Positions 14,902 to 29,744 of a DNA stretch of 36,115 nt are shown in pieces; the stretch's first letter is position 1, and each line of letters opens with the position of its first letter. Under the pieces are notes generated by a model. It had not been told where the DNA came from. It saw only the letters and a list, made by a program, of their open reading frames with translations, and made no database searches. A program made the translations under genes and the position numbers. The stretch spans positions 92,489 through 128,603 of the forward strand of contig NZ_FOIT01000003.1 in assembly GCF_900110815.1 (NCBI RefSeq). Reading direction: 5' to 3'. The DNA is from Aliicoccus persicus. GTDB taxonomy: Bacteria; Bacillota; Bacilli; Staphylococcales; Salinicoccaceae.

Positions 14902-15251
14902 GGGGACGTTTTGGATTCGACAGGGGATGGTCGAGCATTTTAAGCGTGTCGAAGACGTCGGCTTCGTAAAAACGACATCAGTTATAATAACTGGCAAACA
15001 AAACAATTTAGTAGCTGCCTAAGCTAGCTACATCATCCCATGAGCTCACCTGCGGCCCATGACGATGATCCAATTTAGCAGGATACGTACACTTTCTTTC
15101 GTCTAGAGAACAGTGTAAAGAGATCAATTAGACTAGCATAGAATTCGGTTTGTTCCGTACCACATTCTTTGCGAAATCTAAACGCGAACTACACACGTAG
15201 AAAGGAATGTAACGAGTCCCTTGGACGCGGGTTCGACTCCCGCCGTCTCCA
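14902..15251 (+). ncRNA. ssrA: Transfer-messenger RNA (tmRNA)
   Basis: tmRNA rescues ribosomes stalled on non-stop mRNA and tags the nascent chain for proteolysis. The 5' end GGGGACG (14902-14908) pairs with CGTCTCC near the 3' end, with A15251 as discriminator. TTTGGATTCGACAGGG is the conserved 5' block, and GGGTTCGACTCCC is the T arm. The tag frame at 14993-15022 reads GKQNNLVAA then TAA, so with the charged alanine the tag is AGKQNNLVAA. The ending VAA suits ClpXP, encoded nearby. The 350-nt length is typical. Its 3' end is the integration site of the island that follows. Confidence 0.97.
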
Positions 15252-15255
15252 TTTA
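15241..15255 (+). repeat. attL core (15-bp direct repeat) at the ssrA 3' end
   Basis: CGCCGTCTCCATTTA is found here and again, identical, at 18534-18548. It covers the last 11 bases of tmRNA and four bases after it. These are the expected attachment-site repeats of an element inserted by site-specific recombination. Confidence 0.9.
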
Positions 15256-26470: not shown

Positions 26471-26629
26471 AACTCTTATCAAGAGTGGTGGAGGGAAGTG
26501 CCCGATGATACCACGGCAACCGTCTTTTAGACAAGGTGCCAAGTCACTGTTATTTATTTAACGAAGATGAGAGGTTAAAGTATTTTAATATACTAACCTA
26601 CTCATTAAATTTATTGAGTAGGTTTTTTT
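26471..26629 (+). ncRNA. SAM-I (S-box) riboswitch
   Basis: The aptamer opens with CTCTTATCAAGAGTGGTGGAG and continues with GGGAAGTGCCCGATGATACC and ACGGCAACC, the S-box core, then AAGGTGCCAA and the closing GATGAGAG. The expression platform has an antiterminator (GGTTAAAGTAT with ATACTAACC) that competes with a terminator (AACCTACTCA/TGAGTAGGTT plus seven T, 26595-26629). High S-adenosylmethionine should stop transcription of metNPQ. Confidence 0.96.
26595..26629 (+). terminator. Riboswitch terminator of metNPQ
   Basis: Perfect 10-bp stem AACCTACTCA/TGAGTAGGTT with a 9-base loop and seven T, directly before the metN ribosome binding site. Its left arm is shared with the antiterminator. Confidence 0.93.
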
Positions 26630-26648: not shown

Positions 26649-27674
26649 GTGATTGAAATTAAAGATGTCTCAAAGTTATTCAAAACGAAATCCGGGGATG
26701 TCCAAGCAGTTGATAACGTATCGATTCAAGTCGATAAAGGTGAAATTTTCGGTGTGATCGGTTACTCAGGTGCTGGGAAATCGACACTTATTCGATTGCT
26801 GAATGGCCTTGAGACAGTATCGAGTGGTGATATTCGCATCGGAGACGATTATATCAATGCACTGAGTGGTAGAGCGCTTAGGCAGAAGCGTCAGAAAGTA
26901 TCGATGATCTTTCAACATTTTAATTTACTCTGGTCTAGAACTGTTGAACAGAATATTAGTTTTCCACTTGAGATCGCCGGTGTAAATCGGCGAGAACGCA
27001 AGAAACGCGTTAAGGAATTGATCGACTTAGTTGGATTAACGGGTCGAGAAAAAGCATATCCGAGTCAACTGTCCGGTGGTCAGAAACAGCGCGTGGGCAT
27101 TGCACGCGCTTTATCGAATGAACCTGAGGTGTTGCTCTGTGATGAGGCAACGAGTGCACTTGACCCAGAGACAACAGATGAGGTACTCGACTTACTGCTC
27201 GATATACGAGAGAAACTGGGACTGACGATCGTGTTGATTACACATGAGATGTATGTCATTCGAAAAATTTGTGACCGCGCAGCGGTGATGGAAAACGGTC
27301 GTGTCGTTGAAATTGGAGAAATAAAGCAACTGTTTAGAAATCCACAGTCATCGGTGACGAAACGCTTCGTCAAAGATGATATCGATGATGAAGAAACAAA
27401 TGTTTCATTTGAAGCATTACGCGAACAATTTCCGAATGCCGAACTGGTTAAATTGTCCTTTGTCGGTTCAAAAAGTAAGACGCCAATCGTCTCAAAAATC
27501 ATTAAGAAATATGATGTCGATATGAACATCATCGCAGGGTCTATTAAACATACGAACAAAGAGAGTTTTGGTCATCTTCATGTAACGATCGACACATCTC
27601 CTTCAGTACTCGAGGCAATTACTAAAGACCTTGCAGCTGAGAATGTGAAGCTGGAGGTCGAGACGCATGGATAA
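26649..27674 (+). CDS. metN: Methionine ABC transporter ATP-binding protein
   Basis: MetN energises uptake of D/L-methionine. The 341 residues show Walker A GYSGAGKST (38-46), the signature QLSGGQKQRVGIARAL, Walker B VLLCDEATSALD and the switch histidine VLITHEM. The C-terminal NIL domain (about 265-341) in relatives binds methionine for feedback inhibition. The start is GTG 26649 with AAAGGAGG 6 bases ahead; earlier in-frame codons lie inside that site and the riboswitch terminator. It overlaps metP by 8 bp. Confidence 0.96.
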   Translation: MIEIKDVSKLFKTKSGDVQAVDNVSIQVDKGEIFGVIGYSGAGKSTLIRLLNGLETVSSGDIRIGDDYINALSGRALRQKRQKVSMIFQHFNLLWSRTVEQNISFPLEIAGVNRRERKKRVKELIDLVGLTGREKAYPSQLSGGQKQRVGIARALSNEPEVLLCDEATSALDPETTDEVLDLLLDIREKLGLTIVLITHEMYVIRKICDRAAVMENGRVVEIGEIKQLFRNPQSSVTKRFVKDDIDDEETNVSFEALREQFPNAELVKLSFVGSKSKTPIVSKIIKKYDVDMNIIAGSIKHTNKESFGHLHVTIDTSPSVLEAITKDLAAENVKLEVETHG

Positions 27675-28359
27675 ATTACGTGAAGATTTTCTAGAGATGA
27701 TTAGCTTTGAAAACGTTCAATGGGATAGAGTTTGGGAAGAGACAGTCGCAACGCTTTATATGACTGGATACGCAACGTTGTTCACATTTATTTTAGGATT
27801 GATCGTCGGTATTATTTTATTTTTGAGTGGTCGTTCAGACGGACGCTTCATACGGGTAATTTACTTAGTGACAGCCTTTTTAGTGAACTTGTTCCGCGCA
27901 GTGCCTTTTATCATATTAATTATTTTACTCATACCATTTACTTCAGAAATCATGGGAACAATCATGGGTGTTAAAGGTGCATTACCTGCATTGATTTTAA
28001 GTTCAGCACCGTTTTACGCGAGACTCGTTGAGATTGCACTAAAAGAAATCGATAAAGGCGTCATCGAAGCAGCACAGTCGATGGGTGCAAATATATGGCA
28101 CATCATTTTTAAAGTGTTGATTCCAGAATCATTACCTGCACTCATTTCAGGTATCACAGTCACTGCGATTATGCTCGTTGGTGCAACGGCAATCGCAGGT
28201 GTTATCGGTGCAGGTGGGTTAGGTACACTCGCTTACATGGTCGGACATACACGTGGACAACCAGACGTCACACTGGTTGCAACAATAGCAATACTGATTA
28301 TTGTCTTTATCATCCAGATTGTAGGAGATTTAACATCTAAAGCAGTCGATAAACGATAA
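27667..28359 (+). CDS. metP: Methionine ABC transporter permease (MetI/MetP)
   Basis: This 230-residue permease has five hydrophobic segments and the EAA loop EAAQSMGANIWHIIFKVLIPESLP that contacts MetN. Other family features are the RAVPFIILIILL helix and GAGGLG near the end. It overlaps metN by 8 bp and is followed 41 bp later by the binding-protein gene. It works in the cytoplasmic membrane as a dimer. Confidence 0.96.
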   Translation: MDKLREDFLEMISFENVQWDRVWEETVATLYMTGYATLFTFILGLIVGIILFLSGRSDGRFIRVIYLVTAFLVNLFRAVPFIILIILLIPFTSEIMGTIMGVKGALPALILSSAPFYARLVEIALKEIDKGVIEAAQSMGANIWHIIFKVLIPESLPALISGITVTAIMLVGATAIAGVIGAGGLGTLAYMVGHTRGQPDVTLVATIAILIIVFIIQIVGDLTSKAVDKR

Positions 28360-28400: not shown

Positions 28401-29339
28401 ATGAAATTAAACAAATTTGCTAGGTTCACATCAATTGCAGCTGCGTCAGTTATTGCGTTTTCAACTTTAACATCAGGTGCATACGCGCAAGAAGATGACG
28501 AAGTAGTTATTAAAATCGGTGCTTCACCTGCACCACATGCTGAAATTTTAGAAGAAGCGGCTAAGATTCTTGAAGAAGAAGGCATCGTTTTAGACATCTC
28601 TGTGATCAACGACTATGTGACACCAAATAGACTTTTATATGAAGAAGAATTAGATGCAAACTTCTTCCAACATATTCCTTTCCTAGACAATGATAATGAA
28701 ACAAATGATTACGATCTTGTAAACTTAGGCCCTGTACATATTGAGCCAATCGCAGTTTACTCTCAAGATTATGAATCAATTACAGATTTACCAGATGGTG
28801 CAACAATTCTCGTGTCGAATAACGTTGCAGATGAAGGACGTATCCTTTCATTCTTCTTGGACGAAGGATTGATTGAAATCGAAGAAGGTATCGAAATTCA
28901 AGATGCAAGATTTGAAGACATTACAGAAAACCCACATAACTTTGATTTCAATAACAATTCAGCACCAGAGTTATTAGTGAATCTTTACGAATATAATGAA
29001 GGTGACGTAACAATCATCAACTCAAACTTTGCAATCGATGGTGACTTAAATCCAGTTGAAGACTCAATCGCCATCGAAGATGGAGATTCACCTTATGTAA
29101 ACGTCATTGCAGTACGTAACGGAGATGAAGAACGTGAAGAGCTCGTTCGCTTACTTGAAGTATTGCAAAGTGAAGAAATTCAAACATTCATTGAGGAAAC
29201 TTATGACGGTGCAGTCATTCCAGTAGATGATACTGACGATGATGAAGACGAAGAAGCAGAAGACGATGAAGATGAAGAATCAGAAGACGTTGAAGAAGAA
29301 ACAGAAGAAGACACTGAGGATGAAGAGGATGAAGAGTAA
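28401..29339 (+). CDS. metQ: Methionine-binding protein MetQ, atypical
   Basis: MetQ captures methionine outside the membrane for MetNP. The NlpA/MetQ fold is clear: KIGASPAPHAEILEEA, NYVTPNR-type pocket (INDYVTPNRLLYEEELDANF), FQHIPFL and NNSAPELLVNL. Two features are unusual. The signal sequence (residues 1-29, ending GAYA) has no lipobox and the protein has no cysteine, so it cannot be lipidated like most Gram-positive MetQ. Residues 276-312 form a tail of almost only Asp and Glu. AGGAGAG precedes the ATG. It is the third gene of the riboswitch-controlled operon. Confidence 0.94.
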   Translation: MKLNKFARFTSIAAASVIAFSTLTSGAYAQEDDEVVIKIGASPAPHAEILEEAAKILEEEGIVLDISVINDYVTPNRLLYEEELDANFFQHIPFLDNDNETNDYDLVNLGPVHIEPIAVYSQDYESITDLPDGATILVSNNVADEGRILSFFLDEGLIEIEEGIEIQDARFEDITENPHNFDFNNNSAPELLVNLYEYNEGDVTIINSNFAIDGDLNPVEDSIAIEDGDSPYVNVIAVRNGDEEREELVRLLEVLQSEEIQTFIEETYDGAVIPVDDTDDDEDEEAEDDEDEESEDVEEETEEDTEDEEDEE

Positions 29340-29414: not shown

Positions 29415-29744
29415 ATGCACGAAGAACAAAGATCATTTGATGGTACACTAGTTGCAGTTTCTTACATCTCTACTCTCGTTTCTTTATTAATTATTCCAAT
29501 CTTAATATGGGTAATCAAAAGAGATGAGGGCGGCGAGACAGAGCAAGGACTTCGCGATGTCATGAACTATGGAATTAGCTACTCTATTTACTTAGCGATC
29601 TCTAGTCTATTGATGATTGTATTAATCGGATTTGTAACGACGCCGTTAATCGGATTAGCGCTTGTCATTTTCTCTATCTGTGGTGCTGTTAAAACAGCAG
29701 GTGGCGAACGTTGGAGACCACCTTTTGTACTGAATCTACTATAG
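29415..29744 (+). CDS. DUF4870-like membrane protein
   Basis: This 109-residue protein has three hydrophobic segments (about 12-34, 52-72, 76-90) with the family-like pattern of a first helix ending IPILIWVIKRDEGG, then GLRDVMNYGISYSIY and a final loop KTAGGERWRPPF. This matches the DUF4870 (PF09685, Tic20-like) family of small membrane proteins, function unknown. AAAGGAGATG precedes the ATG. It has its own promoter and a strong terminator. Confidence 0.88.
   Translation: MHEEQRSFDGTLVAVSYISTLVSLLIIPILIWVIKRDEGGETEQGLRDVMNYGISYSIYLAISSLLMIVLIGFVTTPLIGLALVIFSICGAVKTAGGERWRPPFVLNLL

Follow-up and report, generated by a model that had tools for sequence, protein, structure and literature searches.

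How a Gram-positive bacterium keeps a nutrient-binding protein at its surface when the protein lacks the site for a lipid anchor is the question raised by the metQ gene of Aliicoccus persicus. In Gram-positive bacteria, a lipid anchor is generally ascribed to the binding proteins of ABC importers, whereas the MetQ protein encoded in the window (the whole stretch of DNA that was analysed, 36,115 nucleotides) has no lipobox and carries a polyacidic C-terminal tail. The gene is the last of a metN-metI-metQ operon that is led by a SAM riboswitch, with the following features:

26473 to 26573, plus strand: SAM riboswitch aptamer (RF00162) at the head of the operon, 87.7 bits against a gathering score of 44.4

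26595 to 26629, plus strand: terminator-like hairpin with a T run after the aptamer, recognised by eye, the probable expression platform of the riboswitch

26649 to 27674, plus strand: metN, ATPase of the methionine ABC transporter with a NIL domain (PF00005 and PF09383, both above cut-off)

27667 to 28359, plus strand: metI, permease (PF00528, above cut-off)

28401 to 29339, plus strand: metQ, methionine-binding protein of 312 residues (PF03180, 252.1 bits)

The hairpin at 26595 to 26629 is absent from the output of the consensus scan, and the top NCBIfam matches of metN (TIGR02314, MetN) and metI (NF008049, MetI) lie under their cut-offs. The metQ reading frame opens with ATG, and an AGGAG just 5' of it resembles a ribosome-binding site by eye. 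Directly 3' of metQ, at 29415-29744, lies a gene for a DUF4870 membrane protein (PF09685), and a tmRNA gene is found elsewhere in the window, at 14902-15254. The product of metQ matches PF03180 over profile positions 1-235 of 236 with 252.1 bits against a cut-off of 27, and no second Pfam domain was found in it; its best NCBIfam matches are sub-threshold (TIGR00363, 146.6 against 228.85 bits; NF008285, 153.4 against 374 bits), while its membership of the PF03180 family, as MetQ, is clear. An earlier reading of the DNA from its sequence alone (hereafter the sequence-only reading) had named a second, lipidated MetQ that does the work as the finding that would speak against its interpretation. 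Such a protein was looked for, and the hidden second copy is ruled out by the genome-wide PF03180 search, in which the 2.06 Mb genome (99.53% complete) gave a single match, so that this MetQ is the only one.

The protein can be divided into three parts:

28401 to 28487, plus strand: signal peptide, residues 1-29, ending in AYA, without a lipobox and without cysteine (sequence, heuristic prediction and a low-confidence region of the structure model)

28488 to 29228, plus strand: predicted mature start at Gln30 (QEDDE) and two-lobed binding core, residues 30-276 (pLDDT and alignment)

29229 to 29336, plus strand: polyacidic tail, residues 277-312, 30 of 36 residues Asp or Glu, predicted to be disordered (pLDDT about 54, no counterpart in relatives)

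With a slash marking the cleavage site, here and below, the signal region reads MKLNKFARFTSIAAASVIAFSTLTSGAYA/QEDDE, and the A-x-A site follows residue 29. There is no cysteine in the 312 residues, hence no lipobox with a cysteine at position +1, and the combination of a positive n-region, a hydrophobic core and A-x-A is the pattern of a signal peptidase I (SPase I) substrate, as judged by eye and by the in-house heuristic with which signal peptide types were assigned throughout (not SignalP). The absence of lipobox and cysteine and the AYA-type site had both been reported by the sequence-only reading and are confirmed. Its 37-residue tail (276-312) stands in so far as the acidic run does start at D276, but the orthologues stop at position 276 or 277, and the true extension is therefore residues 277-312, 36 amino acids long. 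The DNA of the tail is an imperfect 24-base tandem repeat. No sign of a frameshift or read-through was seen, as the tail lies in a single frame with its own stop and comparable tails occur on unrelated genes.

In the structure model the pLDDT is mostly at least 90 from about residue 35 to 270, and the top Foldseek matches are MetQ/YaeC-family structures, the first six with an rmsd of 1.0-1.3 Å. The fold is shared with Bacillus subtilis MetQ (4GOT; 48% identity, 1.0 Å rmsd) and with the YaeC-family protein EF2496 of Enterococcus faecalis (4EF1/4EF2; 46% identity, 1.3 Å rmsd), both of which are named lipoproteins in their entries, in contrast to the A. persicus protein with its 36-residue acidic tail and no lipobox. 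The core fold is thus intact and two-lobed in the predicted structure, and the tail is modelled as disordered.

Among 32 other genomes of the same family, 31 contain a PF03180 orthologue at 52% identity or more, the exception (G024) having only a distant relative of about 30% identity with a lipobox. Together with Gracilibacillus halotolerans this gives 32 orthologues at 52-70% identity. A lipobox is present in every one of the 32 and a C-terminal extension of more than 12 residues in none; they reach at most one residue beyond the core. Likewise, none of the 22 relatives aligned in the core (41-62% identity) has a C-terminal tail. The relatives' lipoproteins share the SAM riboswitch, which was present at 11 of 11 metQ loci scanned, but differ in their lipobox and in the lack of a tail. 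In 26 of the 32 orthologues the cysteine is joined to the core by a linker of 14-38 residues with 5-17 Asp or Glu, whereas in the other six the linker is short or none was measured, and a "relocation" of the acidic segment would therefore not be a simple swap.

Beyond these orthologues, 64 further MetQ sequences were inspected, consisting of the best 30 loci of a phylum search (the best-scoring ones, not a random draw, from a search with a match in 197 of 299 genomes) and 34 sequences from the order, ten of which are from the same family and seven of these ten orthologues already counted. A lipobox, judged by an in-house pattern, was seen in 55 and was missing from eight, and one sequence, whose N-terminus is cut by an in-frame stop, was dropped (8/63); the C-terminal extension never exceeds nine residues. 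MetQ without a lipobox is thus a recurrent minority state, and the idea that it is unique to A. persicus is ruled out by these eight sequences. The statement that Gram-positive MetQ is normally a lipoprotein accordingly holds for the close orthologues (32/32) and less strictly at the level of order and phylum. Two MetQ relatives without a lipobox, L024 (G058) and L029 (G056), belong to another family of the order and have AFA/NE and ALA/DE sites and no tail, apparently a separate loss. The acidic tail, on the other hand, is present on no other MetQ examined. In all comparisons the genus is represented by a single genome, that of A. persicus.

The loss of the lipobox and the gain of a tail are not peculiar to MetQ but recur in other proteins of this genome. 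About 39% of it was covered in stretches, some chosen for coverage and some on binding-protein matches, and in these 17 binding proteins were identified by Pfam (one of them, L213:12357, below the cut-off), a partial set, as only six of the 16 OppA-type matches in the genome were seen. Twelve have no lipobox, namely MetQ, PhnD (L156), PstS (L219), TAXI-1 (L173), an FhuD-like protein (L222), five OppA-type proteins (three in L162, one each in L375 and L376), ZnuA (L212) and an SBP_bac_8 protein (L212). One (L223:3365) is ambiguous, with an early LVGC that the script had scored as a lipoprotein, and the lipobox is kept in TAXI-2 (L172), an SBP_bac_3 protein (L162:2433), L213:12357 and the OppA-type protein of L374. 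The three OppA-type proteins of L162 are encoded in tandem (L162:11968-17882, G000:C6, about 212-218 kb) and have AxA/Q signals. Of the 13 binding proteins in which no convincing lipobox was seen, four (MetQ, PhnD, PstS and TAXI-1) bear an acidic tail, as does the lipoprotein SBP_bac_3 (L162:2433), whereas both lipobox and tail are missing from the five OppA-type proteins, ZnuA, SBP_bac_8 and the FhuD-like protein. A protein without the lipid thus does not need a tail, nor is the tail confined to such proteins.

Comparison with relatives points in the same direction family by family. The PhnD-type protein, which was found by searching the genome for nine consecutive acidic codons, starts with VSA/QDEE, has no cysteine in its mature part and ends in a long acidic tail, while its close orthologues have a lipobox in 4/4 cases and a tail in 0/4. 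A lipobox is present and a C-terminal extension of more than 12 residues is absent in all 29 relatives of PstS, in the closest 14 of 20 sequences for TAXI-1 and in the closest 9 of 21 for the FhuD-like protein. The remaining six TAXI sequences are orthologues of TAXI-2 and lipoproteins as well, and the other twelve FhuD sequences are more distant (24-43%), with a lipobox in most and no signal region in frame in one (L175). When the five families (MetQ, PhnD, PstS, TAXI-1 and FhuD-like) are pooled, 88 of 88 orthologues are tailless lipoproteins, whereas the A. persicus members are lipobox-free in 5/5 and tailed in 4/5 cases. TAXI-1 (L173:14038-15135, G000:C3) reads LVAA/DDND, with uncertain cleavage, where relatives read LAAC/G, so that its lipobox looks to have been lost through a change of the cysteine. 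For the OppA type, five of the six A. persicus proteins seen are not lipoproteins, while all 29 reading frames with an N-terminus in relatives are (12 edge-truncated sequences were dropped); the relatives' proteins share 24-28% identity with the L162 OppA and are compared here as a type, not as established orthologues. Loss of the lipidation pathway as a whole is ruled out as an explanation, since Lgt is still encoded (PF01790, 252.1 bits, G000:C6:85461-86198) and lipoproteins persist in the genome; lipidation itself has not been lost.

The tails can be followed beyond binding proteins. Strong tails, defined as 14 or more Asp or Glu within the C-terminal 25-mer and counted with the same heuristic in all three samples, were seen in A. 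persicus on 11 of the 49 proteins predicted to be exported versus 1 of 762 other proteins (Fisher p 1.4e-13), and on none of those from two sister-genus samples (0/24 in G010 and 0/17 in G032, 0/41 pooled), whose other proteins gave 1/373 and 2/390, respectively; these statistics use the undropped lists of predicted exported proteins, which contain false positives. Lowering the threshold to 12 gives 12/49 for exported proteins, 3/762 for others and 2/41 for sister-genus exported proteins. The two control proteins that then appear are PrsA-like PPIase lipoproteins (L235:13427-14560 in G010 and L257:3363-4376 in G032), whose Glu-rich C-termini have 13 Asp or Glu in the last 25 residues. This distribution bears on the possibility that the tail is a neutral, functionless low-complexity expansion of GAN codons. 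The imperfect 24-base repeat of the MetQ tail and the plainly repetitive sequence of several other tails would be in line with such an origin, but a neutral expansion is improbable in view of the concentration of strong tails on exported proteins and their absence from all 88 orthologues of the five families.

The mere number of acidic gene ends is not unusual, as three genes here match a pattern of five terminal acidic codons versus between 0 and 10 in each of 32 related genomes (where some matches end in TGG, not in a stop), and the anomaly therefore lies in which genes bear tails and in the length of the tails. By eye, the 29 such places in relatives (L094-L122, of which L111 and L112 are not stop-ended) are mostly in cytoplasmic, membrane or probable penicillin-binding proteins. 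Short acidic ends are also seen on two lipoproteins, L102 and L109, and a longer one on L097, whose product has a single hydrophobic segment at the N-terminus. Ten (L095, L096, L098, L099, L103-L105 and L116-L118) resemble penicillin-binding proteins by eye, with Ser-rich and then poly-Asp ends (SSSSDDDDDD); ends of this type occur in several genera of the family and differ from the MetQ-type acidic C-terminus. Acidic C-termini on surface proteins are hence not unknown in the family, given the milder ones on PrsA-like lipoproteins of the sister genera, on other lipoproteins and on probable penicillin-binding proteins. What is special in A. persicus is the length of the tails and their presence on binding proteins that have lost the lipobox.

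A related question is whether the tails merely reflect life in salt. The mean net charge per residue of predicted exported proteins, in lists that include false positives, is -0.214 here, compared with -0.141 in G010 and -0.136 in G032, whereas that of predicted cytoplasmic proteins is equal (-0.036, -0.036 and -0.039, respectively). Only the exported proteins are more acidic, which sets the pattern apart from whole-cell salt adaptation, and acidification of the whole proteome is ruled out by the match of cytoplasmic charge with the two sister-genus samples. The salt adaptation suggested by the sequence-only reading would accordingly fit the exported proteins, but does not extend to the cytoplasm. 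It could still be that surface chemistry of a halophile is all that is involved, so that the tail aids solubility in salt and is unrelated to anchoring, while MetQ is retained by sieving in the wall or by its affinity for MetNI. Relatives of this kind are commonly halotolerant, and tails are also borne by enzymes, which together with the charge of the exported proteins speaks for this account. However, the tailless orthologues have a similarly acidic MetQ core (their final 245 residues have a net charge between -34 and -55, versus -54 for residues 30-276 here) and many exported proteins of A. persicus are tailless, so that salt chemistry by itself seems somewhat unlikely to explain the tail. 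The enzymes concerned, both encoded on G000:C8 and predicted to be secreted, are a gamma-glutamyltranspeptidase (L170:7662-9743) with a repetitive TEEDDA tail and a protein of the glucose/sorbosone dehydrogenase type (L167:5422-6954) with a repetitive DADAEE tail. Two small lipoproteins without a Pfam family (L171:9662-9919 and L157:10189-10848, G000) have both a lipobox and an acidic tail.

A second feature, common to many of the exported proteins, is glutamine directly after the A-x-A site, which was seen in 15 of 22 predicted SPase I substrates of A. persicus (19 of 27, or 70%, with targeted additions) in a hand-curated sample from about 39% of the genome. The 22 were obtained from 31 predicted substrates after the manual removal of nine cytoplasmic, membrane or spurious entries, among them EF-Tu, CTP synthase, TypA, CarB and an SDR; L163:12387, which is ambiguous, was counted as non-Gln. 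The total of 27 includes five manual additions (L167:10162, L222, L375, L376 and L223), and further exported proteins may be missed, as the predictor had missed L222. In the sister samples the count is 0/6 (Fisher p 0.0046 for 15/22 and 0.0027 for 19/27), a small control of six proteins hand-picked from the 17 predicted substrates of both samples; if one of them, L259:17615, is read as GAA/Q, it becomes 1/6 (p 0.057 and 0.025, respectively). A looser count of A-x-A-Q in signal-like N-termini, false positives included, gives 22 of 811 genes here versus 2/397 and 4/407 in the controls.

A preference of this kind is described as the Q-rule in Bacteroidetes, where the mean share of Gln at +1 is 71% (PMC5837995), and it is termed specific to that phylum (PMC5837995; PMC10653852), although the first of these papers also lists a few high values outside it, namely 77% for Ignavibacterium album and 55-67% for three Chlorobi entries. 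A. persicus resembles the Bacteroidetes in that most predicted SPase I sites of the sample would expose Gln (19/27), but differs in being Gram-positive and in that the count comes from predicted sites in a part of the genome. Among open-licence papers searched by title and the opening of the abstract, no report was found of a Q-rule in a Gram-positive bacterium or of a switch from lipobox to non-lipobox signals in several families.

The signal peptide itself could serve as the anchor if it were left uncleaved, as had been suggested by the sequence-only reading. For Neisseria MetQ, a Cys-to-Ala variant is reported to be partly present as uncleaved pre-protein, which stimulates MetNI to a lesser extent (PMC8416018), and retained signal peptides have been proposed to explain the residual function in lgt mutants (PMC3404074). 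In A. persicus, however, the most hydrophobic 19-residue window of MetQ averages only 1.36 on the Kyte-Doolittle scale, and AYA/QEDD fits the AxA/Q pattern that is seen in many exported proteins of this genome, so that an N-terminal membrane anchor of this kind is weakly founded and distinctly improbable. Alternatively, MetQ might be released and capture methionine, or act otherwise, outside the cell, with uptake by diffusion back to MetNI or through another transporter. No sortase motif or other anchor was seen in the MetQ sequence, which besides has the single Pfam domain, and secreted enzymes bear similar tails; yet it is the only MetQ of the genome, and its gene shares a SAM-riboswitch-led operon with metN and metI, as in a dedicated importer, and we consider release quite unlikely.

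We are inclined, with moderate confidence, to regard the protein as the genuine and only MetQ of a riboswitch-led MetNIQ system, which in this lineage has been converted from a lipoprotein to an SPase I-processed protein as part of a remodelling of several families. MetQ would be secreted, cleaved at AYA/Q30 and left with a free N-terminal Gln, would still feed MetNI without the lipid, and would be retained non-covalently in the region of the wall. The acidic disordered segment, which follows the lipid in most sister-genus orthologues, sits at the C-terminus here, where it might form a hydrated polyanion that binds divalent cations and thereby favours wall association and solubility. That MetQ, PhnD, PstS and TAXI-1 have a C-terminal acidic segment where relatives have one behind the lipid suggests that the segment has a role of its own. 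Cation-bridged wall association as this role is a guess, with solubility in salt as its main rival, and the several converted binding proteins that are tailless count against it. The same remodelling would also have altered the PhnD-, PstS-, TAXI- and FhuD-like and, apparently, the OppA-type binding proteins.

On a wider scale, a monoderm lineage may have given up the lipid anchor in much of its set of nutrient-binding proteins in favour of SPase I export that exposes Gln, a Gram-positive Q-rule with N-termini probably capped as pyroglutamate, with polyacidic tails on part of the set that would keep these proteins in, or direct them to, the zone of the cell wall. This broader reading is offered tentatively and is, as it stands, rather unlikely, our estimate having been lowered by the ambiguous control L259:17615 and by the high Q-values outside Bacteroidetes.

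In Lactobacillus, the binding protein BspA of a Gram-positive bacterium likewise lacks a lipobox and is held on the surface by charge, but it is basic, unlike the strongly acidic MetQ of A. persicus. A likeness in MetQ itself is the C20A variant of Neisseria meningitidis, which similarly has no lipidated Cys and occurs in secreted and pre-protein forms, although it is a laboratory mutant of a diderm protein (PMC8416018). Its secreted, unlipidated form is reported to have hardly stimulated the MetNI ATPase, and several uptake functions of ABC transporters were reduced in an lgt mutant of the pneumococcus (PMC3404074). Loss of the lipid should thus cost function, and since it impairs MetNI and ABC uptake elsewhere, this lineage should compensate by retention in the wall zone or by high expression or affinity.

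As lipobox-free MetQ occurs elsewhere, what appears to be new, judging from the sequences compared, is the tail together with the same switch in several families of one lineage. The textbook rule of lipid anchoring fails for these binding proteins, several of which have been rebuilt without a lipobox, and annotation that expects lipoproteins, as in the Pfam family name NlpA lipoprotein, would mislabel them. Should Gln at +1 prove to predominate across the whole genome, this would amount to a Q-rule in a Gram-positive bacterium. The lineage offers a natural experiment: the lipid has been lost from several orthologous families that retain it in relatives, and it can be tested directly whether an anchor is needed and what acidic disordered segments do close to the wall.
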